A DNA stretch of 64,000 bases from Aureimonas ureilytica DSM 18598 = NBRC 106430 (GTDB lineage: Bacteria > Pseudomonadota > Alphaproteobacteria > Rhizobiales > Rhizobiaceae), in contig NZ_ARQE01000010.1 in NCBI RefSeq assembly GCF_000382705.1, forward strand, positions 62,001 through 126,000. The letters run 5' to 3'. Of this stretch, positions 10,458 through 50,608 are shown piece by piece. The position numbers and the translations under genes were made by a program. Every line of letters starts with the position of its first letter. The first letter of the stretch is position 1. Under the pieces are notes generated by a model. It saw nothing but the letters and a program-made list of their open reading frames with translations, was not told the DNA's origin and made no database searches.

Positions 10458-13082
10458 ATGCCCGGCCGCACGCCCCCACCTTTCGTCCTGGCCATGGCCA
10501 TCGTCCTCGCCCTTTGCGGAGCGGCGCTCCTCGTGGGCGGCGTCTGGCTGCTGACGCAGGGCGGCTCCGCCTACTATCTCATCGCCTCGGTTCTTCTGCT
10601 CGTCACCGCGATCCTTCTCTACCGGCGCAAGCCGGAAGCGCTCGCGGTCTATGCGCTTCTCGTCCTGGGCACGCTGATCTGGGCACTCTATGAGGTCGGC
10701 TTCGACTGGTGGCCGCTCGCGGCGCGCGGCGACGTCGTCTTCGTGCTCGGCGGCCTCCTGCTTCTCCCCTGGGTCACGCGCGAACTCGGCCGCCGCTCGG
10801 TGGCGGACGCCCTGGACGGGCGCTCCTTCACGCCGCCCTCCCCCCTGCACGGCGCGGGCGCCATCCTCAGCGGTTCGCTCGTCGTGGCCATGGCGGTCGC
10901 CGTCACCTCCTGGTTCGTCGACCTGCACCGGATCGAGGGCGAGCTGCCGGGCGTGCGCACGCGGCTTTCGGGCGACGCGCAGGGCATTCCAGCCGGCGAA
11001 TGGCAGGCCTATGGCCGCACGCTGGCCGGCCAGCGCTGGTCGCCGCTCGCCGACATCACGCCCGCCAACGTCACCGATCTCGAAGAGGTCTGGCATTTTC
11101 ACACGGGCGATCTGCCCCAGCCGGGCGATCCGACCGAGACGACCTTCCAGGTGACGCCGCTGAAGATCGGCGAGCGCCTTTATCTCTGCACGCCGCACCA
11201 GAGCGTCATCGCGCTGAACGCCACGACCGGCCAGGAAGTCTGGCGCTACGATCCGCGCGTTCAGGGCGAGCTGGCGCTTCAGCATCTCACCTGCCGCGGC
11301 CTCGCCTACCAGCCGCCGGGCGCCGCCACGAGCGGGAACGCCAGTGCCGAGGCCGCCAACGCCGGTGCGCCGCAGGCGAGCACTGAGAGCGCTTCGGCCC
11401 CGGCCGGCACGGCCTCCGAGCTTTCCGCGCAAGGCGGGCTCACCGCCTCGCAGGCGCGCGGCCAGAGCGGCGCGCCGACCGGCGGTGCGCCGGCCCAGGA
11501 GGGAGCAGGCTCGGCCGATCCCGGCCTGCCGGTCGCGGCCGCCAACAGCCAGACGGCGGTCTGCGACGCCAAGCTCTTCATGCCGACGGCCGATGGCCGC
11601 CTCATCGCGCTCGATCCCGAGACCGGGCATGTCTGCTCGAATTTCGGCGGCGGCGACGGGCAGCTCGACCTCTGGAACCGGATGCCCAACGTCAATCCGG
11701 GCTCCTATTACTCGACCTCGCCGCCGGTCGTGGCCGACAATCTGGTGATCGTCGGCGGCACGGTTCTCGACAATGTCTCGACGGCGGAAGCCTCGGGCGT
11801 CATCCGCGCCTTCGACATCTCGACCGGCGAACTCGTGTGGAACTGGGATTCGGGCAATCCGGACCAGACCGCGCCGCTGCCCGAGGGCCAGACCTACACG
11901 CCGAACTCGCCCAATTCCTGGTCGATCATGAGCGCTGACCCCGCGCTCGGCATGGTCTATGTGCCGCTCGGCAACCAGCCGCCGGACCAGTGGGGCGCCA
12001 ACCGTTCGGAGACTGTCGAGCGCTATTCCTCGTCCGTCGTCGCGCTGGACATCCGGACGGGTCAGGTGCGCTGGCATTTCCAGACCGTGCATCACGACCT
12101 CTGGGACTATGACGTGCCGTCGCAGCCGAGCCTGATCGACCTGCCGATCAACGGCGAGACCGTGCCGGCCCTCGTGCAGCCGACCAAGCAGGGCGAGGTC
12201 TTCGTTCTCGACCGGCGCACCGGGACGCCCGTCCTGCCCGTGCGCGAGAAGCCCGCGCCCGGCGGCGCCGTCGCGCCGGACCGCACGGCCCCGACGCAGC
12301 CGGTCTCGCAGGTCAGCTTCGACCCCGCTCCCTTGCGCGAGAAGGACATGTGGGGCGCGACGATGTTCGACCAGCTCCTGTGCCGCATCGCCTTCCATTC
12401 CTATCGCTATGACGGCCGCTACACGCCGCCCTCGCTGGAAGGCTCGATCATCTATCCCGGCAATTTCGGCGTCTTCAACTGGGGCTCGGTGGCGGTCGAT
12501 CCGCAGCGCGGCGTCCTGTTCGGAACGCCGGCGCATCTCGCCTTCCTCTCCACCCTCGTGCCCCGCCCGCAGGACAAGACGCTGGTGGTGAACCAGGAGC
12601 AGCCGGAAGGCGCCCTCCCCGCGCTGAACGAGAATTTCGGCGCGCCCTATGCGGTGAAGCTGCGGCCCTTCACCTCGGTTCTCGGCCTGCCCTGCCAGTC
12701 GCCACCCTGGGGCCATGTCGCGGGCGTCGACCTGACGACCGGCGAAATCGCCTGGATGCACAAGAACGGCACGGTGCGCGACAGCGCGCCCTTCCCGATG
12801 ATCCCCTTCCGCATGGGCGTGCCCAATCTCGGCGGTCCGGTCATGACGGCGGGCGGCGTCGCCTTCCTGTCCGGCACGCTCGACCAGTATGTGCGCGGCT
12901 ACGACGTCACGTCGGGCGAAGAGCTTTGGCGCTCGCGCCTGCCGGCCGGCGGCCAGTCGACGCCCATGACCTATCGCGGCGCGGACGGGCGGCAGTATCT
13001 CCTCGTCGTCGCCGGCGGCCACGGCTCGCTCGGCACCAAGCGGGGCGACTCGGTGATCGCCTACGCCCTGCCCGGCCGGTAG
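10458..13082 (+). CDS. gcd: membrane-bound PQQ-dependent glucose dehydrogenase
   Basis: 874-residue quinoprotein. The first 140 residues contain five transmembrane helices, as in Gcd; the rest is a periplasmic eight-bladed PQQ propeller with W-motifs such as TGQEVWRYDP, TGELVWNWD, TGEIAWMH and SGEELWRSRLP. HHDLWDYDVPSQPSL carries the proposed catalytic Asp. It oxidises aldoses to lactones and passes electrons to ubiquinone. Length exceeds the usual 790-800 residues because a 70-residue Ala/Ser/Gly-rich stretch sits at about 290-365 between CRGLAYQPPG and CDAKLFMPTADG. GAAGGAAA-like SD precedes the ATG. No PQQ synthesis genes are nearby. Confidence 0.94.
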   Translation: MPGRTPPPFVLAMAIVLALCGAALLVGGVWLLTQGGSAYYLIASVLLLVTAILLYRRKPEALAVYALLVLGTLIWALYEVGFDWWPLAARGDVVFVLGGLLLLPWVTRELGRRSVADALDGRSFTPPSPLHGAGAILSGSLVVAMAVAVTSWFVDLHRIEGELPGVRTRLSGDAQGIPAGEWQAYGRTLAGQRWSPLADITPANVTDLEEVWHFHTGDLPQPGDPTETTFQVTPLKIGERLYLCTPHQSVIALNATTGQEVWRYDPRVQGELALQHLTCRGLAYQPPGAATSGNASAEAANAGAPQASTESASAPAGTASELSAQGGLTASQARGQSGAPTGGAPAQEGAGSADPGLPVAAANSQTAVCDAKLFMPTADGRLIALDPETGHVCSNFGGGDGQLDLWNRMPNVNPGSYYSTSPPVVADNLVIVGGTVLDNVSTAEASGVIRAFDISTGELVWNWDSGNPDQTAPLPEGQTYTPNSPNSWSIMSADPALGMVYVPLGNQPPDQWGANRSETVERYSSSVVALDIRTGQVRWHFQTVHHDLWDYDVPSQPSLIDLPINGETVPALVQPTKQGEVFVLDRRTGTPVLPVREKPAPGGAVAPDRTAPTQPVSQVSFDPAPLREKDMWGATMFDQLLCRIAFHSYRYDGRYTPPSLEGSIIYPGNFGVFNWGSVAVDPQRGVLFGTPAHLAFLSTLVPRPQDKTLVVNQEQPEGALPALNENFGAPYAVKLRPFTSVLGLPCQSPPWGHVAGVDLTTGEIAWMHKNGTVRDSAPFPMIPFRMGVPNLGGPVMTAGGVAFLSGTLDQYVRGYDVTSGEELWRSRLPAGGQSTPMTYRGADGRQYLLVVAGGHGSLGTKRGDSVIAYALPGR

Positions 13083-13094
13083 GCTCCCCGAGAC

Positions 13095-13135
13095 GAAACA
13101 AGGCGGCGCGCCAACCCGGCACACCGCCTTGTTTC
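13095..13135. terminator. bidirectional intrinsic-type hairpin between gcd and the convergent unknown gene
   Basis: Perfect 12-base arms GAAACAAGGCGG (13095-13106) and CCGCCTTGTTTC (13124-13135), located 12 bases after gcd and between convergent genes. The arms end in TTGTTT / AAACAA, giving a short U-rich tract in both directions. Confidence 0.7.
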
Positions 13136-13173
13136 CATCCAGGGTTCGGGCCGCTTCGAGCCTGGAACGAGCC

Positions 13174-13812
13174 TCAGGTGCGATGGCTGCCCATCACGCC
13201 GGGAAGACGGGGCCTGGGCGCGCTGAAGGCACTGGAACGTGCCCGGTTTTCGCCCGGCGCACGCTCGAGACCTGGGAAACTACCGCCGCGCCAGCCGAAT
13301 TTCTGAGCGTCGCCGATCGCGTTCTTGGCGAAGGACAACGCTTCCACCTCGGGCTTTCCTGATTCCATATTCATTTTCGTGAGCGTGAGCAGGCCGACAT
13401 TGGTCAGGTTGCAGCCCTTGGGCGAGCATTGGAACATGTGGATCATGTCGCCATCCAGCCGCATTGTTCGCTTGTCGTTGTCGGCCTTCAGCTTGTCGAG
13501 CCAGCGGAAAGTCACGGTCGAGGGCGAATAGGGGCGGCCGATTTCCTGTGACACGGAATAGGACGCGACGATGTAGTCCTCGCTCGGTTTGAAGATGTAC
13601 TGGCTTTGATTATGGGACCACGGCCGCGTGCTGCGCGTCTGAACCAGCACGATGATGTAGCGGCCATTGGCGAGTTCCTGCGTCATCGCGGGCCCAATCG
13701 CGACCCAGGCGGCGATGTCCTGGTCTTTGGTGGTGCAGGGTGGGCCGAAGGAGACGCCCTGCGGCGCCGCAAGGTCTGCGGCCTGATGAACGACGATTTC
13801 CTGAATGGGCAT
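13174..13812 (-). CDS. hypothetical protein, compositionally atypical
   Basis: 212-residue protein that I do not recognise. It starts MPIQEIVVHQAADLAA with GGAGGATC eight bases upstream, which decides this start. Four cysteines occur (PPCTTKD near 30; FQCSPKGCNLT near 135), with several aromatic patches (YIIVLVQTRS, YIVASYSVSQ). No signal peptide or membrane segment is seen from this start. Base composition is clearly lower in GC (about 52-58 percent in places) than neighbours, and Asn/Lys/Ser are more common, suggesting acquisition from elsewhere. It stands alone, convergent with gcd. Confidence 0.6.
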   Translation of the reverse strand: MPIQEIVVHQAADLAAPQGVSFGPPCTTKDQDIAAWVAIGPAMTQELANGRYIIVLVQTRSTRPWSHNQSQYIFKPSEDYIVASYSVSQEIGRPYSPSTVTFRWLDKLKADNDKRTMRLDGDMIHMFQCSPKGCNLTNVGLLTLTKMNMESGKPEVEALSFAKNAIGDAQKFGWRGGSFPGLERAPGENRARSSAFSAPRPRLPGVMGSHRT

Positions 13813-13990
13813 GGCGACGATCCTCCGAGCGATGCGCGGCTTCGGCCGCCGGTCGGAAATGTTGTAGATCGCGGCGCCCTCGTTCACCAACCGGCGGCGG
13901 GAGCCATATGGGACAATCCGTCTCCTAGACGGCGATATCGTACCAAGCCTTCCCCTCGCGGGGGAGGGTCCGACCCTTTGCCGCCCCCGC

Positions 13991-14671
13991 TCAGGCCACC
14001 AGGTGCGCGCGGACCTCGTGCAGATCGGCGGCCACCATCCGGCAGAGGGCGCGGATTTCGTCGGTGGCCGGCAGGAGGTCGGGCACCATGACGGTGCGCA
14101 TGCCGGCGGCGGCGGCGGCGCGCACGCCATTGTAGGAATCTTCCAGCGCCAGGCATTGCGCGGGATTGACGCCCAGCACCTCGGCCGCGCGCAGGAACGG
14201 GTCGGGCGCGGGCTTGCCCTTGGCATAGTCGCCATTGGCGATCACGGCCTGGAAGCGCGGGGCGAGGCCATGGAGCGCCAGATTGGCGGCCACGTCCTCA
14301 TGCGACGAGGAGGTGCAGATCGCGCGTGGAATGCCCAGCGCGTCGAGATGGTCGAGAAGTTCCAGCACGCCGGTCTTGAGCGCCAGCCCCTTCTTCAGCA
14401 GCGCATAGTGCCGCCGCCAGACCGCTCTGAACGTCTCGATGTCCTGATCATGACCGAACAGGGTCTGGAGATAGTCCCTGTTGATGCCCCAGGGGCGGCC
14501 GACCATGACGAGGAACGCCTCGATCGTGGCGGGGCGGCCGATCTCGATCGTCGCCGCCAGAAAGGCGTCGCGGCTGAGAACCTCGCTGTCGAACAGGACC
14601 CCGTCCATGTCGAAGATCACGGCGGCCGGCCGGCCGGCGTCGGCTCTCGAAGTCGCTTCACTCGCGGTCAA
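13991..14671 (-). CDS. HAD-superfamily phosphatase (subfamily IA)
   Basis: 226-residue haloacid-dehalogenase hydrolase. Motif I is AVIFDMDGVLFDSE with nucleophile and acid Asp residues; motif II is ICTSSSHEDV; motif III Lys is in YAKGKPAPDPFLRAA; motif IV is CLALEDSYNGVRAA. This pattern fits beta-phosphoglucomutase/GS1/phosphoglycolate-phosphatase-like enzymes; the substrate cannot be told from sequence. I chose a TTG start (protein beginning LTASEATSRAD) because AAGGAG lies 7 bases upstream; a further TTG 57 bases upstream has no such signal. Phosphoglycolate phosphatase is one option given the nearby glyoxylate metabolism, but that is speculation. Confidence 0.85.
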   Translation of the reverse strand: MTASEATSRADAGRPAAVIFDMDGVLFDSEVLSRDAFLAATIEIGRPATIEAFLVMVGRPWGINRDYLQTLFGHDQDIETFRAVWRRHYALLKKGLALKTGVLELLDHLDALGIPRAICTSSSHEDVAANLALHGLAPRFQAVIANGDYAKGKPAPDPFLRAAEVLGVNPAQCLALEDSYNGVRAAAAAGMRTVMVPDLLPATDEIRALCRMVAADLHEVRAHLVA

Positions 14672-40475: not shown

Positions 40476-40738
40476 GGAACAGGGTCCGTTGTGTCGATTC
40501 GGATCAGGAAGTCGCGACGGGACCCCAAAGTTCCCTCAAAGCCTCGAACAATCGCCCGGAAACGAGACCGATTGTGGAGTTCGTTCAATCGGATAGGGCC
40601 TGGAGAGGCCCACCGGACGGAGCGCGGGAGACGCCCTTCTTTCGCCGTCGCAGGGCCGAACCCCGGCCCTCTTCCCATGTTGCACTGCAACCGAAAGCCC
40701 GGACGCTCCGTTTCCGCGGCCCGACGAAGGAGATGCTC

Positions 40739-41638
40739 ATGGTTCTTCCGGAATCCGCAAGCCTGCCCCGGATGATCCGCTATATCGGCTGGCCGCTCGC
40801 CCTGCTGTTCGTCTGGGACGTGATCGTCACGCTGGCCTATGTCTATCTGCCGCATCCCGGCTTCGAGCTGCCGGTCCTGCCGATGACGCTGCTCGGCTCG
40901 GCGCTGGCGCTGTTTCTCGGCTTTCGCAACAACAACGCCTATCAGCGCTGGTGGGAAGCGCGCACGCTCTGGGGCGCCATGGTGAACGCCTCGCGCTCCT
41001 ACGGGCGGGCGGTGCTCCATCTCATCGACAAGAGGCCGGACAGCCAGGATCTCCGCCATGCGCTGGTGACGCGCCAGATCGCCTATGTGAACGCTTTGCG
41101 TTGCCATCTGCGACGCCAGTCCTGCCTGGACGAGATCGCCCCGTTCCTCGGCGAAGGCGAGGCCGACGGGCTGAAGGGCGTCGCCAACGTGCCGAACGCC
41201 ATTCTGAACGAGACCGGCGCGCTCCTGTCGGACGCGCTGCGCCAGGGCTGGACGGACTCCATCCGCCGCACGCAGATCGAGCAGCTCCTGGTGGACATGA
41301 GCAACGCGCAGGGCGGCATGGAGCGCATCAAGAACACGCCGCTGCCGCGCGAATACGCTTATTTCCCCACTCTTTTCGTGCATGTCTTCTGCCTGCTCCT
41401 GCCGATCGGCATGGTGGACAGTCTCGGCCTCTACACACCGCTCGCCTCCACCATCGTCGGTTTCATGATGCTGGCCATGGACCGGATCGGCAGCGACCTG
41501 CAGGACCCGTTCGAGAACCGGGCTCACGACGTGCCGCTCACCTCGATCTGCCGCACGATCCAGATCGATCTGGAGCAGCTGCGCGGCAAGGTGGACACGC
41601 CCGCCCCCGTCCGCCCGGTTAACCACGTCCTCTGGTAA
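40739..41638 (+). CDS. bestrophin-like anion channel (YneE/UPF0187 family)
   Basis: 299 residues: WPLALLFVWDVIVTLAYVY (TM1), LPMTLLGSALALFLGFRNNNAYQRWWEARTLWG, the family hallmark, then a cytosolic helical region and TM3-4 FPTLFVHVFCLLLPIGMVD and TPLASTIVGFMMLAMDRIG, ending DPFENRAHDVPLTSICRTIE-like sequence. Bacterial bestrophins are pentameric channels; KpBest conducts cations. I start at the second ATG (MVLPESAS) because AAGGAG is 6 bases before it. Stands alone. Confidence 0.9.
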   Translation: MVLPESASLPRMIRYIGWPLALLFVWDVIVTLAYVYLPHPGFELPVLPMTLLGSALALFLGFRNNNAYQRWWEARTLWGAMVNASRSYGRAVLHLIDKRPDSQDLRHALVTRQIAYVNALRCHLRRQSCLDEIAPFLGEGEADGLKGVANVPNAILNETGALLSDALRQGWTDSIRRTQIEQLLVDMSNAQGGMERIKNTPLPREYAYFPTLFVHVFCLLLPIGMVDSLGLYTPLASTIVGFMMLAMDRIGSDLQDPFENRAHDVPLTSICRTIQIDLEQLRGKVDTPAPVRPVNHVLW

Positions 41639-42323: not shown

Positions 42324-43148
42324 ATGAAGACCCTCGCCCTTCTCCTCGCCTCCGCCGCCTCGCTCGGCCTCGCCTCGCAGGCGCTCGCCGCCGACGTCGT
42401 CTATGCCGAGCCGGCCGCGCCCGTCGCCATGGCCCCGGTCATGACCTGGACCGGCCTTTACCTCGGCGTTCAGGCCGGCGGCGCGTTCAACCCCGACAAT
42501 GGCGACAATCTCGCCGTGGTGCCGAACTTCGCCGGCGCCGGCGCGACCTTCCTGACCAACGCCTTCGGTTCGAACTTCAACTCCGAGTTCGAGTCGAGCT
42601 TCATCGGCGGCGCGCATATCGGCTACGACTATCAGGCCGGCAACTTCGTGATCGGCGCCCTCGCCGACATCAACGCGCTCGACATCGCCCAGCGCGCCAG
42701 CGGCTTCTCCAACACCCCGGCCTTCTACACGGCCGAGCGCAGCCTCGACTATCTCGTGACCGGCCGCCTGCGCGCCGGTTATCTCGTGACCGAGAGCGCC
42801 CTCCTCTACGCCACGGGCGGCTTCGCCTATGGCGAGGTCGACTACGGCTTCAGCACCAACAGCCCGGCCGTCACCGCCGCCTTCCCGGCGATCGCCCGTT
42901 CGGACGAAGACGAGTGGGGCTACTCGGTCGGCGGCGGCATGGAAGTGAAGGTCACGCAGAACATCTCGTTCGGCGCCGAATACCTCTACACCAATCTCGG
43001 CGAGGGCAACTCCTTCACCCGCCTGAACGGCGGCCCGTTCGACGGTTCGGGCGCTGCGGTCATCCCCGGCCAGTACACCGACTTCCGCTCGCAGGGCGAT
43101 TTCGACTTCCACACCGTCACGGCGAAGCTGTCCTACCGCTTCAACTGA
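42324..43148 (+). CDS. outer-membrane beta-barrel protein (RopB/Omp25/Omp31-like)
   Basis: 274 residues with signal peptide MKTLALLLASAASLGLASQA and cleavage after ALA (residue 23). WTGLYLGVQAGGAFN is the first strand and is typical of Hyphomicrobiales Omp25/Omp31/RopB proteins; alternating aromatic strands follow (HIGYDYQAGNFVIGALADIN, GRLRAGYLVTESALLYATGG), ending TVTAKLSYRFN with the C-terminal Phe-Asn rather than plain Phe. An eight-stranded barrel is expected. Codon use is highly biased, suggesting abundance. GGAG 8 bases upstream; strong terminator downstream. Confidence 0.92.
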   Translation: MKTLALLLASAASLGLASQALAADVVYAEPAAPVAMAPVMTWTGLYLGVQAGGAFNPDNGDNLAVVPNFAGAGATFLTNAFGSNFNSEFESSFIGGAHIGYDYQAGNFVIGALADINALDIAQRASGFSNTPAFYTAERSLDYLVTGRLRAGYLVTESALLYATGGFAYGEVDYGFSTNSPAVTAAFPAIARSDEDEWGYSVGGGMEVKVTQNISFGAEYLYTNLGEGNSFTRLNGGPFDGSGAAVIPGQYTDFRSQGDFDFHTVTAKLSYRFN

Positions 43149-43186
43149 TCCGTTTCGGATCGCGTCTTCCCTTCGCGATCCTTCTG

Positions 43187-43224
43187 AAAGGCCCGTCCGG
43201 CATCACGCCGGGCGGGCCTTTTTT
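43187..43224 (+). terminator. intrinsic terminator of the outer-membrane protein gene
   Basis: Arms AAAGGCCCGTCCGGC (43187-43201) and GCCGGGCGGGCCTTT (43207-43221, one mismatch in the arm) followed by more T residues to 43224. Confidence 0.9.
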
Positions 43225-43332
43225 GTCACGCACCCGTCGCAAAGCGCGAGCTTGGCACCGGCGCGGCTGGCTTGCATCTTTCCGGATGGCCGGCGAACCA
43301 TAGGTCATGGCCGATCTTAGCCGGAGGGGTTC

Positions 43333-43512
43333 ATGGCGTCGGACGAAGATCCGATCATCACGGTGTTGCGGCTTTCGGAAGAAACCGACGATCCGACCGA
43401 ACTGACGCAGCGGTTCCGGGAAACCCATCCCGACCTGCCGCATCAGGCGTTTCTCGACGCCTGCATGGTGGCGCTCGACATTATCGGCTCGCGCCCCGCC
43501 CGCCTGCACTGA
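43333..43512 (+). CDS. small hypothetical protein
   Basis: 59 residues, MASDEDPIITVLRLSEETDD then PTELTQRFRETHPDLPHQAF and LDACMVALDIIGSRPARLH. Acidic, helical, cytosolic. GGAGG lies 6 bases before the ATG, a good initiation signal, and codon use is genome-like. No domain is recognised. It stands alone between the OMP terminator and the GGDEF/EAL gene. Confidence 0.6.
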   Translation: MASDEDPIITVLRLSEETDDPTELTQRFRETHPDLPHQAFLDACMVALDIIGSRPARLH

Positions 43513-43826
43513 CGCGCCTCGCCCGACGCCCGGACTTCAGGGACAGCCCGCAGCGCGCGTCGCGCGGCCTGCGTCACATCGCCTCGCTGATTATCCCTTG
43601 TCCAACGTTTCCGCGAAGGCCTTAACGTCCTCTTCAGCAAAAATGGACGTGAATGGGAGATCATCTGGCCTAAACGGTGAACGGCGCGTTAGGCATTCAG
43701 GCAGTGAATGACAGGCCTTACAGTGCGATACAAACGCGGTTCAGACGGATCGATCCCACCGCCCCCGGAACGTCCCGGGCCGGCGTCTCGAACCGCGCCT
43801 TTGCCCAGGGTGCGGAGCGGGCGGCG
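43513..43826 (+). promoter_or_regulatory. 314-base gap upstream of the GGDEF/EAL gene
   Basis: No gene is seen. The part around 43580-43700 is A/T-rich for this genome and most likely holds the promoter of the following gene. An in-frame GTG at 43677 could extend the GGDEF/EAL protein by 50 residues but has no SD and the added sequence is not domain-like. I see no clear operator. Confidence 0.35.
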
Positions 43827-46196
43827 ATGACACGGGCCGGTTTGATGGGGGCCTTTCGACGGCTCACGGCGTTCCTGATCGACTACGATCCGCATGAGCC
43901 GCGCCTCGAAGGCCCGCTGCCCGACCGGGTCCTGACCGAGCGCGTCGATGTCGCGCTGCGCCTCACCCCCCTCACCGCGATCACCGCCTTTCTCGTCGTC
44001 CAGGTCATCATCGCCCTGTTCTGGGACGGCCCCTACATTCCCTATCTCGTGGCGCTCCAGATCGGCAGCGTGACCCTGACGGTCTGCACGCTGGAGGGCT
44101 GCTGGCGCTGGCGCTCGCGCCCCATGCCGCAGCAGATCGGCCCGCGCTTCCGGGCGATGATGACCGGGCTGCCGCTGCTGGCCGGCCTGCTTCTCGGCTC
44201 GATCCCGCTCATGCTCTTCGTCGACAGCGACATGCAGGGGCGTCTGGTGATCGCCTCGACCTGCGCCGGCCTGATCGCGACGGGCATGTGCCTCGCCACC
44301 ATGCCGACGGCTTCGCTCGCCTATGTCGGCCCGATCACGCTCGGCTCCTTCGTGGCGCTCGCCATGACGGGCGAGCTCCTCAACATCTACGTGGCGCTGC
44401 TTCTGGCCTTCTACGCCCTGTTCATCTTCACCGCGATGTTCCACCTGCGCCGCCTCGTGACGCGGCGCGTCCTCACGCAGATCGAGCTTGCCCGCCAGCA
44501 GGAGCTGACCAACCTCCTCCTCAACGATTTCGAGGCCCATGCCAGCGACTGGCTCTGGGAAACCGACGCCGAGCTGCGCCTCCAGCATGTCTCGCCGCGG
44601 CTGGCGGAGGTCGTGGAACTGCCCGAAAGCGTCCTCCACGGCCTGCGCTTCGACCGGCTCGTCGGCACGGCCGACGCGCTCGCCCGCGCCAATGCGCAGG
44701 ACGAGGGCCTGCGCCTTCTCCTCTCGGCCATGGACGCGCGGCGCGAATTCCACGGGCTTCAGATCCGCCTGTCGATCTCGGGCGAGCATCGCTGGTGGAG
44801 CCTCAGCGGCAAGCCGATCCGCGATTGCGAGGGCATCTTCACCGGCTATCGCGGCGTCGGCTCCGACATCACCGTGCAGAAACAGTCGCAGGAACGCCTG
44901 TCGCATCTCGCCACCCACGATCCGCTGACCGATCTGCCCAACCGGATGCTGTTCCAGACCCGGCTCGACGATCTCGTGGCGCGCGGCGAGGCGACGCGCT
45001 TCGCGGTCATGTGCCTCGATCTCGACGAGTTCAAGAGCGCCAACGACGCCTTCGGCCATGCGGTGGGCGACGCGCTCCTTAAAGAAGTGGCGCGGCGTCT
45101 CAGGGGCTTCCAGAGCCCGATCACCTTCGTCGCCCGGCTGGCCGGCGACGAGTTCATGGTGCTCCATGAGAGCGACGACCGGGCGGCGCTCGCCCGGCTG
45201 GCGGAGCGGCTGGTGGCGGCGGTGGGCCGGCCCTGCCGCATCGGCGACATCCAGCTCGGCGTCGGCGTCAGCATCGGCATCGCGGTCGCCAGCGGAGACG
45301 GCGAAAGCGATCTCGTGCGCCGGGCGGATCTGGCGCTCTACCGCACCAAGAACGAGGGCCGGAACGGCTTTCGCTTCTACGAGGCGGAGATGGACGCCCA
45401 GCTCGAGAAGCAGCGCGCGCTCGCCTCGGACCTGCGCGGCGCGCTGGATCGCGGCGAGTTCCATCTCGCCTACCAGCCCCAGGTGGACGCCTGCACCGGC
45501 GCGATCTGCGGCTTCGAGGCGCTTTTGCGCTGGAACCACCCGCAGCGCGGCAGCGTCGCCCCGTCCGACTTCATTCCGATCGCCGAGGAAACCGGCGTCA
45601 TCCTGCCGCTTGGGCGCTGGGCGCTGCGCGAAGCCTGCCGCGCCGCCCATGCCTGGCCGGACGCGATCGGCATCGCCGTCAATCTCTCGCCCATCCAGCT
45701 GCGCCATTCGGACGTCGCGAGCCTCGTGGAAGACGCGCTCCTTTCCTCGGGCCTGCGCCCGGAGCGGCTGGAGCTGGAGATCACCGAGTCCGTGCTTCTC
45801 GACGCCAGCGCCAACGTCAATTCGTCGATCGCCAAGCTGCGCGAGCTGCATGTGCGACTGGCGCTGGACGATTTCGGCACGGGCTATTCGAGCCTGGCCT
45901 ATCTGCGCCGGATCGCCTTCGACAAGCTCAAGATCGATCGCGGCTTCATCACCGATCTGCCGGGCGAGGACGCGAGCCTGCCCATCGTGCGCTCCATCGT
46001 CTCGCTCGCCAAGGCGCTCGGCATGACCGTGATCGCCGAGGGCGTGGAGCGCGAGGACCAGCGCGCCTGCCTCGTGGAACTCGGCTGCGACGAGTGCCAG
46101 GGCTTCCTGTTCGGCCGCGCCATGTCGGCCGAAGCCGCGACCGCCCTCGTCGTTCCCGAAAGCGAGCGCGCGGCCTCGCTCATGCAGGCGTCCTGA
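43827..46196 (+). CDS. membrane-anchored PAS-GGDEF-EAL cyclic-di-GMP protein
   Basis: 789 residues. Five or six transmembrane helices span about 45-225. A PAS domain follows (about 245-360; DWLWETDAELRLQHVSPRL), then GGDEF (about 375-535) and EAL (about 545-785). The diguanylate cyclase signature is AGDEF (RLAGDEFMVL) instead of GGDEF, with upstream DLDEFKSANDAFGHAVGD. The EAL domain has all main motifs (GFEALLRW, AVNLSPIQ, LEITES, DDFGTGYSSL, KIDRGFI), so phosphodiesterase activity is likely. AGDEF variants can still be active in some proteins. Convergent with the next gene, four bases apart. Confidence 0.92.
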   Translation: MTRAGLMGAFRRLTAFLIDYDPHEPRLEGPLPDRVLTERVDVALRLTPLTAITAFLVVQVIIALFWDGPYIPYLVALQIGSVTLTVCTLEGCWRWRSRPMPQQIGPRFRAMMTGLPLLAGLLLGSIPLMLFVDSDMQGRLVIASTCAGLIATGMCLATMPTASLAYVGPITLGSFVALAMTGELLNIYVALLLAFYALFIFTAMFHLRRLVTRRVLTQIELARQQELTNLLLNDFEAHASDWLWETDAELRLQHVSPRLAEVVELPESVLHGLRFDRLVGTADALARANAQDEGLRLLLSAMDARREFHGLQIRLSISGEHRWWSLSGKPIRDCEGIFTGYRGVGSDITVQKQSQERLSHLATHDPLTDLPNRMLFQTRLDDLVARGEATRFAVMCLDLDEFKSANDAFGHAVGDALLKEVARRLRGFQSPITFVARLAGDEFMVLHESDDRAALARLAERLVAAVGRPCRIGDIQLGVGVSIGIAVASGDGESDLVRRADLALYRTKNEGRNGFRFYEAEMDAQLEKQRALASDLRGALDRGEFHLAYQPQVDACTGAICGFEALLRWNHPQRGSVAPSDFIPIAEETGVILPLGRWALREACRAAHAWPDAIGIAVNLSPIQLRHSDVASLVEDALLSSGLRPERLELEITESVLLDASANVNSSIAKLRELHVRLALDDFGTGYSSLAYLRRIAFDKLKIDRGFITDLPGEDASLPIVRSIVSLAKALGMTVIAEGVEREDQRACLVELGCDECQGFLFGRAMSAEAATALVVPESERAASLMQAS

Positions 46197-46200
46197 CCCG

Positions 46201-48033
46201 TCAGGCGATCGCGTCCGACAGGCTCGGCTTCGTCTCCTCGATCCGCTTGCCGATCGAGGAGCCCTTCGGCCAATAGGGCAGGAAGCCCCGGATGATGCTG
46301 CCGGGAATATCGAGCGGCTGATAGGTCTTGGTGTCCACGAACATCAGCGACTGCGAGCCCCGCCCGAGCAGGCCATGGTTCTCGCTGTGGATCTCGTGCT
46401 CCAGCGTCACGAACTTTCGGTTGTGCGAGGCGATGCGGATGCGCACCACGATCGGCTCGAACTCCTGCGCCTCGCGCCGGAAATCGTGCTGGAAGGAGCG
46501 CGTCAGGACGTAGAAGGACGTGTTGGCGAGATCGAAGTCGGGCATGCAGAGATTGAAGAACAGCTCGCGCGCCTTGCCGACCCATCGCATGTAATTGGCG
46601 AAATACACGTTTCCGACCGAGTTCGTGTCGTCATAGGTCGGCACCATGCGCATGGCGAACCAGTCGCCATCGAACCCGTGGGCGGCGGAGAGTTCGGCGA
46701 CGCGCGTCACGGGCTGGGCTGGAGAAAGGGCCACCGGCGCGGAGGCCGGCGCCGCGCCGTCGCCGAGGTCCGGCGTCCTGGCCGGCGCCTTGGTCGGCTC
46801 GCCGGGGTCGCGGACCACCATCGGCAGCGCGCCGACGAGACCGACGAGCGCCGACAGGGCCAGAAGGCTCGGCGCCGGGCCGGCATAGCCGAGCACGAAG
46901 AGAAGCAGCGCGGCAAGCCCGATGAGATAGCACAGGACCGGATCGTAGCGGCCCTTGCGCCCGAGAACCCGCGCCACGAGGCAGGCGGCCGGCCCTGTGA
47001 ACAGGGTCGCGAAGGGCGCCATCAGATAGATCATCGGCAGTCCGGCCTGAACCGCCAGCGCGGCGAGCCCGGCGGCGAGCGCCAACACCCAGAGCGGCGA
47101 GGCGACCAAAGCGGCCGGAACGATGGCGAGAAGCGCGCTCTTGCTGTTCGCCGTCACCGTCGTCAGCAGCCAGCGCAGCGCGCTGTAGCTGCCGTCGGCC
47201 GTGGAAAGAAGCGCGATCGTCGCCCAGACCACGAAGGCCGCGGACGCCGCCTGCGCGCCGCCTGTCCCCAGAACCTGTGCCACCGCGCCCTGCTCGCCCA
47301 ACGAGCCATCGGCAAAGAAAAGCGCGGGCGCGGCGCCGGCGGAGATGGCGAGCCAGCCGTTGAGAAGGAGAAGCCCGAGGAACAGCGCCGAGCCGAGCGC
47401 GTAGCTCAGCCGCGCGGAGCCCCCGGCCCGGCGGATTTCCACGACGCGCTGCCATTGCTGGAGATCGGTCCAGGGGCCGAGCAGGAACCCGACGAGCGAG
47501 GGCAGGACGAGGCCGAGGAAGCGGGGGCTGAGACCCTCCGTCGGCGCCGGCAACGGGGCCACCGCCGCGCCCAGCGTGACCAGTGCATAGACGGCGGCGC
47601 CGAGGCCGATCGGCAGGTAGGCCATATGAAGAAGACGCAGGGCGCGCAGCGAGAAGGCCTGTCCGGTCGCGCAGGCGACGAAGAGTGTCAGTGCCGCCAG
47701 AAGCGCCATGCCCGCCAGACCGCCGACCGGCGCGAGATAGGCGACGAAGGCATGAAGGCTGATCCCGACGGCCGCGATCTGCGCCAGAAGGAACAAGCCG
47801 GTGAACGGCCCTTGAAGCCGCGCGAAGAGCTGCGCGGGGTCGCGCCCCGGCCGCCCGAGCACCCAGCCGAACAGGAAGAGGCCGAGCATGTTGGGCAGCG
47901 CGAACGCCAGAAGCCCGCTCCATCCATAGGCGCGCGCCACATGGAGCGAATAAAAGAAGCCGAGACCCCAGAGCCAGGACAACGCAACCGTGGGAACCCA
48001 ACCCAGGGATACCCGAATCACGGAAAATGGCAT
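46201..48033 (-). CDS. fusion of a sodium:solute symporter-like membrane domain and a hot-dog thioesterase
   Basis: 610 residues. Residues 1-415 have about 12 helices; PWTDLQQWQRVVEIRRAGG and ALLSTADGSYSALRWLLTT resemble sodium:solute symporter (SSS) family blocks. After a Pro/Ala linker (420-450), residues about 470-610 are a hot-dog domain: VPTYDDTNSVGNVYFANYMR, WVGKARELFFNLCMPDFD, SQSLMFVDTKTYQPLDIP. The pattern DDTNSVGNVYFANY resembles enediyne-type polyketide thioesterases and 4-hydroxybenzoyl-CoA thioesterases, with the catalytic Asp region kept. I start at MPFSVIRVSLG; 21 extra upstream codons are not hydrophobic. Role unknown; perhaps acyl transfer coupled to transport. Confidence 0.8.
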   Translation of the reverse strand: MPFSVIRVSLGWVPTVALSWLWGLGFFYSLHVARAYGWSGLLAFALPNMLGLFLFGWVLGRPGRDPAQLFARLQGPFTGLFLLAQIAAVGISLHAFVAYLAPVGGLAGMALLAALTLFVACATGQAFSLRALRLLHMAYLPIGLGAAVYALVTLGAAVAPLPAPTEGLSPRFLGLVLPSLVGFLLGPWTDLQQWQRVVEIRRAGGSARLSYALGSALFLGLLLLNGWLAISAGAAPALFFADGSLGEQGAVAQVLGTGGAQAASAAFVVWATIALLSTADGSYSALRWLLTTVTANSKSALLAIVPAALVASPLWVLALAAGLAALAVQAGLPMIYLMAPFATLFTGPAACLVARVLGRKGRYDPVLCYLIGLAALLLFVLGYAGPAPSLLALSALVGLVGALPMVVRDPGEPTKAPARTPDLGDGAAPASAPVALSPAQPVTRVAELSAAHGFDGDWFAMRMVPTYDDTNSVGNVYFANYMRWVGKARELFFNLCMPDFDLANTSFYVLTRSFQHDFRREAQEFEPIVVRIRIASHNRKFVTLEHEIHSENHGLLGRGSQSLMFVDTKTYQPLDIPGSIIRGFLPYWPKGSSIGKRIEETKPSLSDAIA

Positions 48034-48279
48034 GAGGGCTGCGCCTTGGACGTGTAAATTTTTAACGAAGCTTCCCGGTCTTTCAGCGCGCGTCAACGCC
48101 TATTCACCCGCTGATCAAAAAAAATCTCACCCAGTTGGGGAGGGAACTTCCCGTTGCGTGGCGATCAACTCTGAAGCGATTCAATCCGCGTCGAGAAGGT
48201 CGTGCGCAGCACCCGCCGCGCGACACGCGGGGAGGTTGAAAAAAGTCGGGCGATCGACGGTCGAGGGACGGAGCGCCGT

Positions 48280-48699
48280 TCAGGCGCCGGCGATGCGTTG
48301 CGCCACGCGGGCGCGCTCGCCGCTGATCTCGTCGAGAATCGGGCAGTCGGGGCCGCGCCCCTTTTCGCAGTCCTGCGTCAGCGAGGCGAGCGAACGCTTG
48401 AGCGTCTGGAGTTCCTCGATCTTGCGGTCGATCTCCAGAAGGCGCCGGCTGGCAAGGCGGCGCACTTCGTCGCGCTGGCTCCCCTCGCCCGCATAGAGGG
48501 AGAGGAGCTTGCGCGCCTCGTCGATCGAGAAGCCGAGCGAGCGCGAGCGCTGGAGAAAGCGCAGGACATGCACGTCACGCTCGGCATAATCGCGATAGCC
48601 GTTGGCCGCCCGCGCGGGTCGGACGAGACCCACATCCTCGTAGTAGCGAATGGTCTTCGCCGGCAGGCCGGACCGTCGCGAGGCCTCCCCGATATTCAT
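48280..48699 (-). CDS. cueR: CueR/HmrR-type copper-responsive MerR regulator
   Basis: 139 residues. MNIGEASRRSGLPAKTIRYY is the winged helix; a long dimerisation helix follows; the metal loop has Cys111 and Cys119 in CEKGRGPDCPIL, the CxxxxxxxC pattern of Cu(I)/Ag(I)/Au(I) sensors. The position of Ser77 in E. coli CueR, which distinguishes monovalent sensors, appears to be Arg or Asp here, a deviation to note. A MerR-type operator lies just upstream, indicating autoregulation. No copper ATPase, oxidase or chaperone gene is nearby. Confidence 0.88.
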   Translation of the reverse strand: MNIGEASRRSGLPAKTIRYYEDVGLVRPARAANGYRDYAERDVHVLRFLQRSRSLGFSIDEARKLLSLYAGEGSQRDEVRRLASRRLLEIDRKIEELQTLKRSLASLTQDCEKGRGPDCPILDEISGERARVAQRIAGA

Positions 48700-48718
48700 C
48701 GCAACCCCCGGAGTGTCA

Positions 48719-48739
48719 CCCTGTCTCCACAGGACAGGG
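48719..48739. promoter_or_regulatory. MerR-type 7-7-7 operator upstream of cueR
   Basis: CCCTGTC (48719-48725), seven-base spacer TCCACAG, GACAGGG (48733-48739): a perfect dyad with exactly the arm and spacer length of CueR/HmrR operators. It starts 19 bases from the cueR ATG, so it should control cueR itself; the L,D-transpeptidase gene 200 bases away in the other direction is a less likely target. Confidence 0.7.
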
Positions 48740-48938
48740 ACGGAAATGTCGCGGCCTTGTGGATCGTCAACTGTGCTCGCACCGCAACAATACAATCTTA
48801 ACCACACAGGGGTCTAATCTTCACATTGCCAGGGATGGGTCGGAGCGGTACGGAAAAGCAACCCCAACGGGATCGCTTGTCCGCGGACTTGGGCCGATTG
48901 CCTGGCCGACCGACCCCGCAGCCTGCACCGGACGTTTC

Positions 48939-49703
48939 ATGAAGACCCGCTCGAATCCGCTTCTCTTCGGCGTTTGCCTCGCCGCCATGGCTGCTCTCAG
49001 CGCGTGCACCACCACGCAGAAGCAGGCCTCGATCGTGCAGACCGCGCCGATGGCGCAGGCCTATGTCGCGCCCGCCGAGGAGATCAAGTCGGGCGGCCCG
49101 CTCGGTCCGGTTGAACTCACCGCCTATGAAGCGTTCGAGGATGGCGGCTTCAAGCTGCCCAAGATCCCCGTCAACAAGATCGACCCCCAGTTCCTGCGCC
49201 AGCGCGTCGTCTACAATGGCGAAGGCTTCGAGCCGGGCACGGTCGTGGTCGACACGAACAACCACTTCCTCTACGTGATCGAGCCGCGCGGCACGGCGAT
49301 GCGCTATGGCATCGGCGTCGGCAAGGCGGGTTTCGCCTGGTCGGGCGAAGCGCAGATCAAGGACAAGCAGCACTGGCCGAAGTGGTTTCCGCCGGTCGAG
49401 ATGATCGCCCGTCGCCCCGAGCTCAAGCCCTATGGCAACGAGGTCGGCATGAACCCGGGCCTGCAGAACCCGCTCGGCGCCCGCGCCCTCTACCTCTACC
49501 AGGGCAAGAAGGACACGCTGTTCCGCCTCCATGGCACGCCGGAATGGTGGTCGATCGGCAAGTCCGTGTCCTCGGGCTGCATCCGCCTGATGAACCAGGA
49601 CGTCGTCGATCTCTATGACCGCGTTCCGATGAACGCTCGCGTGATCGTGCTCCAGGGCAAGGAAACGCTGCAGGATCATCGCCGCAGCGCGCCGCAGAGC
49701 TAA
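48939..49703 (+). CDS. L,D-transpeptidase (YkuD) lipoprotein
   Basis: 254 residues. Lipobox ALSAC with Cys23 after a hydrophobic segment LLFGVCLAAMAALS, so it is probably membrane-anchored on the periplasmic side. The YkuD domain spans about 95-245 with RLHGTPEWWSIGKSVSSGCI: His and the catalytic Cys of the HXX...SXGCXR motif. It would make 3-3 cross-links in peptidoglycan or attach proteins to it; such enzymes are numerous in Hyphomicrobiales. I start at MKTRSNPLLF since the lipobox follows it; upstream in-frame codons are outside the signal. Confidence 0.93.
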   Translation: MKTRSNPLLFGVCLAAMAALSACTTTQKQASIVQTAPMAQAYVAPAEEIKSGGPLGPVELTAYEAFEDGGFKLPKIPVNKIDPQFLRQRVVYNGEGFEPGTVVVDTNNHFLYVIEPRGTAMRYGIGVGKAGFAWSGEAQIKDKQHWPKWFPPVEMIARRPELKPYGNEVGMNPGLQNPLGARALYLYQGKKDTLFRLHGTPEWWSIGKSVSSGCIRLMNQDVVDLYDRVPMNARVIVLQGKETLQDHRRSAPQS

Positions 49704-49939: not shown

Positions 49940-50608
49940 TCAGGCCGACGCGCGCGCGCCTTTCGTCTCGCCTTCGATCAGCGCGACGCGCAGGCAGAGC
50001 GCGAGGGTCACGGCGTTCAGCCCATGCCAGAGGAAATGCGTTCCGAGCGGCCAGGAGGGGCAGAGCGGATCGTCCGCCATGCGCAAGGCGAGCGAGAGCG
50101 TGAACACCGTGCCCGCGCCCCAGAGCCCCCGCCCTGCCGCGCGCTTGCCGCTACCCGCGAGCCAGAGCCCGGTGACGTAGAGCGCCAGAAGCGCCGGCAG
50201 ATAGGCTTCCGAGGAGCCGAGGAGAGGCGTGGTGAGGGGCGAGACGAACTGGCCGAAAAGCACGAAGGCGACAAGGCCGAGAAGCGTCAGGAGCCAGGAC
50301 AGGCCGACGAGGCGCCGGAGCACCAGCGCTAGGAAGCCGAAGATGAAGAGCGCGATCGGCAGGACGTCCGCCAGCGCCGACCAGCGGTTGGCGAGGGTGT
50401 GGAACAGGAACGAGCCGATCCCGATCACGGCGACGAGCGCGATCAGGGCGAGAAGAAACGGGTCGCGCCGCTCCGTCCGCCGCCAGCGTCCGAAGGCCCA
50501 GACGGCGGCGAGAAGGAAAGCGGCGTTGCTCAGCGCATTGACAGGCTCGGCCCAGAAACCGGCGTCCAGCCGCTCGCAATAGGCGTCGATCGGGGTGGTC
50601 CAGTCCAT
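49940..50608 (-). CDS. ceramidase-like (CREST superfamily) membrane protein
   Basis: 222 residues with seven hydrophobic segments. Starts MDWTTPIDAYCERLDAGFWA and has EPVNALSNAAFLLAA, GIGSFLFHTLANRWS (first metal His) and GTHFLWHGLNAVTLAL (second His pair near 195), the pattern of alkaline ceramidases and related CREST hydrolases. A lipid amidase role is possible; bacterial members are uncharacterised. Single gene with hairpin downstream. Confidence 0.85.
   Translation of the reverse strand: MDWTTPIDAYCERLDAGFWAEPVNALSNAAFLLAAVWAFGRWRRTERRDPFLLALIALVAVIGIGSFLFHTLANRWSALADVLPIALFIFGFLALVLRRLVGLSWLLTLLGLVAFVLFGQFVSPLTTPLLGSSEAYLPALLALYVTGLWLAGSGKRAAGRGLWGAGTVFTLSLALRMADDPLCPSWPLGTHFLWHGLNAVTLALCLRVALIEGETKGARASA

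Follow-up and report, generated by a model that had tools for sequence, protein, structure and literature searches.

A fused membrane domain and thioesterase beside a c-di-GMP gene

The window, as we call the whole 64,000-nucleotide stretch of the Aureimonas ureilytica genome analysed here, holds on its minus strand a gene for a protein in which a membrane domain of predicted SSS/SLC5 fold is joined through a linker to a hot-dog thioesterase domain (the fusion; Table 1). A preliminary description of this DNA had reported a single 610-residue protein, and the reading frame confirms it; the plus strand of the same interval carries an antisense frame only. On the opposite strand a second gene, whose end lies 4 bases from that of the fusion gene, encodes a predicted six-helix membrane protein with PAS, GGDEF and EAL domains (the partner). 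Most of the functional evidence comes from this neighbouring gene, which lies outside the coordinates that the preliminary description covered. Its apparently repeated association with the fusion ties the latter to cyclic di-GMP (c-di-GMP), and we consider a functional link between the two highly probable.

The architecture of the fusion is constant across its relatives. Among 7999 candidates scored, 259 were related at E<=1e-3, and the protein occurs in Aureimonas, Methylobacterium, Phyllobacterium and related bacteria. PF13279 was present in all 120 fusion relatives listed. A search of genome contigs gave 57 fusion loci among the 80 retained of 107 matches, the other 23 being matches to the thioesterase part only. 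With the membrane half as sole query (7997 candidates scored), 51 of the 52 proteins found had a thioesterase domain, and the remaining one was 350 residues long on a contig of 1592 bases. An order-wide search with a membrane profile, scoring at most four candidates per genome, found this half in 5 of 397 genomes, every time in an open frame of 610-719 residues; no stand-alone gene for it turned up among the candidates scored in these membrane-half searches. With 259 relatives and 57 public fusion loci the fusion is not an assembly artefact, and the doubt initially attached to it, that relatives might carry the two parts as separate genes, finds no support among the candidates scored. Its distribution is patchy: it is present in 4 of 21 genomes of Aureimonas, the window's genus, and in 10 of 37 genomes of a second genus, taken to be Methylobacterium. 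Gene context in some deep-branching relatives, described below, led us to consider also whether the fusion might be RkpI; this is not supported by the order-wide search, in which, with at most four candidates per genome scored, only five genomes had the membrane half and none of them was among the listed genomes of genera g298-g303, from the window's family. Among the matches listed from the open-licence literature, no title or abstract start pointed to a paper describing the fusion or the pair, and the main text of a review of SSS proteins (PMC7918813) does not contain the word thioesterase.

Table 1. Features of the fusion gene and of the convergent partner gene, in window coordinates
Feature	Position	Strand	Basis or remark
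SSS-fold + hot-dog thioesterase fusion gene	46201..48033	-	610 aa, ATG 48033, stop 46203-46201
Membrane half, residues 1-412; 12 predicted transmembrane helices, SSS/SLC5 fold	46798..48033	-	predicted structure, fold matches, profile match
S277-T278, column of SSS Na2-site hydroxyl residues, core helix 8	47200..47205	-	alignment and conservation
Pro/Ala-rich linker, residues 413-453	46675..46797	-	mostly low model confidence
Hot-dog thioesterase domain, residues 452-587, CalE7/DynE7/SgcE10 type	46273..46680	-	Pfam, profile, Foldseek
Active-site stretch N471...Y481...R489, aligned with CalE7 N19/Y29/R37	46567..46623	-	alignment, conservation
Partner: six transmembrane helices - PAS - GGDEF (AGDEF) - EAL, up to 839 aa	43677..46196	+	Pfam, motifs, structure; start codon uncertain
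Partner six transmembrane helices and signalling helix	43923..44540	+	predicted structure, profile A5
Partner GGDEF domain, AGDEF replacing GGDEF	44910..45365	+	Pfam, motifs
Partner EAL domain, EALLRW, DDFGTGYS and AEGVE motifs	45429..46118	+	Pfam, motifs

The membrane half resembles SSS proteins by fold

About 12 transmembrane helices with SSS-like blocks had been proposed for the N-terminal part. The helix number agrees with the predicted structure and with the distribution of charges: Lys and Arg together number 20 in the loops expected inside and 2 in those outside (loop borders chosen by us), a bias that fits 12 helices with both termini inside and from which the likely orientation is taken. 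The SSS-like character stands by fold but not by Pfam: the predicted structure has the LeuT-type SSS fold, whereas Pfam SSF (PF00474) gave no match at E<=1, neither in the window protein nor in the 26 relatives searched. The membrane half matched none of the transporter models of Pfam and NCBIfam, a single NlpE_C match lying under its cut-off. A profile match (through L100) provides a remote sequence link to an ordinary SSF protein. With the whole fusion as Foldseek query the best 50 matches were hot-dog structures only, the SSS matches coming from a second look; by fold, the first 415 residues do resemble transporters.

The hydroxyl residues of the Na2 site of SSS proteins (PMC7918813, section 4.1) are retained. 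Among 201 relatives, made up of listed homologues and locus copies, some repeated, position 277 is Ser or Thr in 194 and position 278 is Thr in 197. Fold, Na2 hydroxyl columns and the profile match are thus what the fusion has in common with ordinary SSS/SLC5 symporters such as PutP, SiaT, CHT1 and DUR3. Unlike these it has no Pfam SSF match of its own, carries a thioesterase tail and lacks the extra helix ahead of core helix 1: its alignment with seven SSF proteins begins at core helix 1, and in fold comparison the chain matches start near residue 47 of CHT1.

The tethered domain belongs with enediyne-type thioesterases

The Pro/Ala linker noticed earlier is indeed there; its model confidence (pLDDT, the predicted local distance difference test) falls below 50 at residues 419-449, and its sequence varies in a 26-member alignment (A1). 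Beyond it, Pfam 4HBT_2 matches residues 468-580 (E 2.5e-13, 51 bits against a cut-off of 25.5) and is found at E<=1 in all 26 members of A1; in the window protein only 4HBT models exceed their Pfam cut-offs. The motif DDTNSVGNVYFANYMRW occupies residues 468-484. The solved proteins closest to it in sequence are CalE7 (4.9e-12), 4i4j (2.9e-11; SgcE10 by its title) and DynE7 (2.1e-9), and a 77-sequence profile (A2) prefers CalE7 (E 6.2e-15) to YbgC (2.3e-4). The preliminary description had seen in this domain a pattern shared with enediyne polyketide synthase (PKS) thioesterases, and both sequence, with CalE7 best, and fold agree; structure prediction likewise returns a two-domain protein, SSS/SLC5 fold followed by hot-dog fold.

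The fusion has the Asn, Tyr and Arg columns in common with CalE7, whose Asn19, Tyr29 and Arg37 we take to be catalytic; the columns of N471, Y481 and R489 are kept in 200, 201 and 201 of the 201 relatives. Judging from the motif, we assume that the N471 column is that of the catalytic Asp of YbgC-type acyl-CoA thioesterases, which belong to the same 4HBT superfamily, and, if so, the family goes with the Asn-type enzymes. The YbgC/FadM models TIGR00051 (37 against a cut-off of 68.7 bits) and TIGR02799 (31.9 against 141.35 bits) are not reached by the window protein. In YbgC the Asp of the active-site core is reported as essential, its change to Asn being inactivating (PMC5479800). The domain is probably an active thioesterase. 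CalE7, DynE7, SgcE10 and EspE7 give the best sequence and fold match, but these enediyne thioesterases are free-standing and serve an iterative PKS, whereas the thioesterase of the fusion is membrane-tethered, and nothing in the window's genome points to a type I PKS.

Fusion and partner recur together

A partner counterpart is adjacent in 44 of the 57 public loci, tail-to-tail in 40 and, as a relative of the partner, upstream of the fusion in tandem in 4; three further loci are too short for the neighbour to be judged, some matches being cut by contig ends. Of the other families of open reading frames (ORFs) within 10 kb, just three occur in four or more loci spread over two or more bacterial families, and two of these three are mostly from Phyllobacterium. 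In Aureimonas all four genomes with the fusion have the partner membrane domain at >=312 bits, and none of the 37 other relatives scores above 94 bits. In the second genus the domain is present in 10 of 10 fusion genomes and in 5 of 27 fusion-free ones (167-344 bits), adjacent, as we read the coordinates, in nine of the ten, with a gap of about 1.6 kb in one of these nine (L143). Fisher tests, in which kinship is ignored, give 1.7e-4 for Aureimonas (above 100 bits) and 8.6e-6 for the second genus.

Across 43 convergent pairs, repeated genomes included, the distance matrices of fusion and partner correlate (Spearman 0.86, Pearson 0.96; 0 of 2000 permutations as high), which shared descent of the pair explains as well as function. 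More telling for the tie is an apparent exchange of the partner for a paralogue. The fusions of the tandem lineage group together with support 100 and join the convergent lineage L033 (support 88), but in the partner tree the corresponding partners group with other paralogues. In an approximately unbiased (AU) test, based on 214 columns, a quick tree and groups chosen after a first look, a tree in which convergent and tandem partners form a single clade is rejected (p 0.00015), and a clade made up of the tandem partners by themselves is mildly disfavoured (p 0.0475). The test covers the loci other than L111-L117 (duplicates) and L149, L125, L134 and L147 (very long branches); the trees were built without L148 and L132 (too short), L001-L004 and L062-L110, so that the fusion tree is without members of the deep-branching group g353.

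All four tandem partners carry GGDEF, and 41 of 42 convergent copies read AGDEF or SGDEF, the remaining copy being cut off before the motif. The loss of the first Gly is thus in step with gene arrangement (L005-L061). The EAL motifs of the window partner are intact. Because the GGDEF motif is altered and the EAL motifs are intact, the convergent partners look like mainly phosphodiesterases, with the caution that some copies, given below, read ETL. Among the matches listed, the NCBIfam models matching the partner are for general c-di-GMP enzymes, nearly all under cut-off. Its listed fold matches fall nearly all on the PAS part, so that the six-helix part was barely probed, and a sequence search of the PDB with that part gave a best E of 1.1.

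A possible route from acyl thioesters to c-di-GMP

Our preferred reading, held tentatively and at a little under even chances, is of a membrane-tethered thioesterase that is coupled to a transporter-like domain and works with a c-di-GMP partner. The hot-dog domain would hang in the cytosol from the 12-helix domain, making the fusion a membrane-bound acyl thioesterase that acts together with the six-helix PAS-GGDEF-EAL protein encoded next to it. The SSS-like domain would bind, and probably move, a small solute through its retained Na2-type ion site; its state would gate the thioesterase or be fed by it, and the thioesterase would cut an acyl-ACP (acyl carrier protein) or acyl-CoA (coenzyme A) substrate, perhaps unsaturated, releasing the acid. 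The partner's membrane or PAS domain would then read either the acid or the transported solute and set the output of the EAL phosphodiesterase, so that c-di-GMP would track acyl supply. Of these steps, we lean slightly towards real transport by the SSS half over sensing only; that the free acid or a relative of it is the partner's signal is possible, though doubtful. The findings are compatible with the proposal, made when the protein was first noticed, that thioester hydrolysis may be tied to transport or membrane sensing.

The closest working model for the pair would be RpfF/RpfR, the synthase and receptor for DSF (diffusible signal factor) in Burkholderia and relatives. RpfF is a crotonase-type enzyme, whereas here a hot-dog thioesterase sits on a 12-helix membrane domain; RpfR starts with an FI domain, and the N-terminus of the partner is predicted to form six transmembrane helices. 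A gene that cuts thioesters, judging by its family, adjoins a PAS-GGDEF-EAL gene in the window as in the 44 loci above. In the Rpf system, as in the window, the two genes are convergent; RpfF frees the fatty acid from ACP and RpfR binds it (PMC6361424). Loss of YbgC in Shewanella, which may serve as a second precedent in that a thioesterase modulates c-di-GMP, left about 30 per cent of the wild-type level, an activity-dependent effect that its authors ascribe to enhanced degradation (PMC5479800). A third precedent for the proposed mechanism would be CbrA, whose SLC5 domain bears a signalling tail (PMC13022988): in the SLC5-STAC histidine kinases CbrA and CrbS (PMC13022988, PMC7918813) an SSS/SLC5 domain is fused to a cytosolic working domain, as in the fusion, but the fusion has a thioesterase in place of STAC and kinase, neither of which had a Pfam match in the window protein. 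The pair would thus work like these models and belong under none of them. It is unlikely that the resemblance extends to a full DSF-like circuit, in which the thioesterase would free a short or unsaturated acid from its carrier protein, the SSS domain would move that same acid across the membrane, and the partner would read it and lower c-di-GMP. Such a circuit would consist of parts unrelated to RpfF; its synthase would include the transporter, and a paralogue could take the place of its receptor.

Were the preferred reading right, two genes would connect acyl-thioester metabolism with c-di-GMP in Methylobacterium, Phyllobacterium, Aureimonas and their kin, and the list of working domains attached to SLC5-type transporters would gain an enzyme. 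Proteins whose source annotation says merely thioesterase would also gain a role.

Loci without the partner and alternative explanations

Several observations weigh against the preferred reading. Ten of the 57 loci lack the neighbour, although each of these ten has flanks of 2.5 kb or longer on either side of the fusion. Of the 17 fusion-free Aureimonas genomes, 13 have no partner match and 4 have partial ones (47-55 bits), so that the count of 0 of 17 depends on a 100-bit line set after the scores were seen; and genomes that are akin, and in part repeated, enter the counts for co-occurrence, pair correlation and trees as if independent of one another. In the partner tree, built on 214 columns, the convergent clade has a support of 87. 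The EAL core reads ETL in three Phyllobacterium copies inspected and in L009 (the EAL pattern also failed in other Phyllobacterium rows of the motif scan), and the partner frame of L006 ends before the EAL part. A sequence comparison of the partner's PAS domain with solved structures gave no close relative (best E 0.019), and the PAS domain of RpfR is not among the 50 fold matches listed, which is not a test of that likeness. Both g353 genomes and three Rhizobiaceae have no homologue of the partner membrane domain at E<=1e-3, and an Acetobacteraceae metagenome-assembled genome has one of just 42 bits; the partnership is therefore not required for the fusion protein as such. Seven partner-less fusion loci (L007, L008, L027, L038, L043, L045, the last with a short flank, and L050) have a related protein elsewhere in the genome (185-243 bits), which may be a mere background paralogue, as such a protein also occurs in 5 of 27 genomes without the fusion.

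In G523, one of the g353 genomes, gene context points to lipid or polyketide making. There (L105, 2074-14407) a type I PKS (KS-AT-DH-ER-KR-ACP, 2546 aa), a BioF-like enzyme, the fusion and a FabI-like reductase all face the same way and may form an operon, with the fusion working for the PKS; the reductase begins 14 bases after the fusion, as does a same-sized frame in G771. In G771 (L106, 6507-14367) two Capsule_synth proteins, a polysaccharide export protein and frames of the short-chain dehydrogenase/reductase (SDR) type surround the fusion, the capsule-type genes preceding it; putative PKS- and BioF-like frames lie farther off. This context resembles rhizobial rkp-type capsule loci. In L007 (M. 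goesingense) an acyl-CoA dehydrogenase gene (12228-14186, minus strand) takes the convergent position in place of a c-di-GMP gene, and L008 has a 653-aa ORF in the matching position. In L057 a glycosyltransferase lies beside the fusion, adjoined by an Oxidored_FMN/Pyr_redox flavoenzyme. With the partner missing from deep lineages and the g353 context as it is, the main clade is probably where the partnership belongs, and the fusion may originally have served to release lipids or polyketides.

These neighbours would suit a different job altogether, in which the thioesterase releases or proof-reads acyl chains bound to the carrier protein of a fatty acid synthase or of a type I PKS like RkpA/WcbR, the SSS half transports the acid or else a head-group solute, and the c-di-GMP gene was added later for regulation. 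That CalE7, among the nearest solved thioesterases, frees a PKS-bound polyene (PMC3107222) agrees with it, as do the PKS row, the capsule and export genes directly before the fusion, and the genes beside it in L007 and L057. The main clade, in contrast, has no common lipid-gene neighbour but does have the PAS-GGDEF-EAL gene. In the window's genome a KS-AT query gave five matches, of which the four listed lie in frames of 439-450 aa (best E 8e-36, in a 439-aa frame). Release from a PKS is thus disfavoured for the window's own genome and kept for the deep lineage; as a general account of the family, lipid or polyketide editing seems rather unlikely to us. A sensing role is a little less probable still: the SSS half would detect an outside solute without transport and switch the thioesterase as SLC5 kinases like CbrA switch their kinase, the product being a local metabolite. 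Known fusions of SLC5 domains to signalling modules (PMC7918813, PMC13022988), the near-constant attachment of the membrane half to its thioesterase (51 of 52) and the missing first helix suit this idea. Set against it, the fusion keeps the Na2 hydroxyl columns, whereas CbrA, which still transports, has non-conserved Na2 residues (PMC7918813); ion-coupled movement is therefore favoured. Finally, two ordinary genes might travel together on a horizontally shared segment with no joint function, as the patchy presence in both genera would allow and as would the three places that Aurantimonadaceae take in both trees, as after a shared transfer. But adjacency that recurs with altered order, altered strand and a different paralogue is not what hitch-hiking predicts, and we think it very improbable.

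Other genes near the fusion

A search of 43000-49000 against Rfam returned zero families at gathering score. Upstream of the fusion gene and on its strand lies a MerR-family regulator (48280-48807, minus strand; Pfam MerR_1 E 6.3e-20). A ceramidase-family membrane protein (49940-50608, minus strand; Pfam E 1.5e-9) is encoded a few genes from the fusion, and a bacterial bestrophin at 40574-41638 on the plus strand (Pfam Bestrophin_2 E 2.7e-76).
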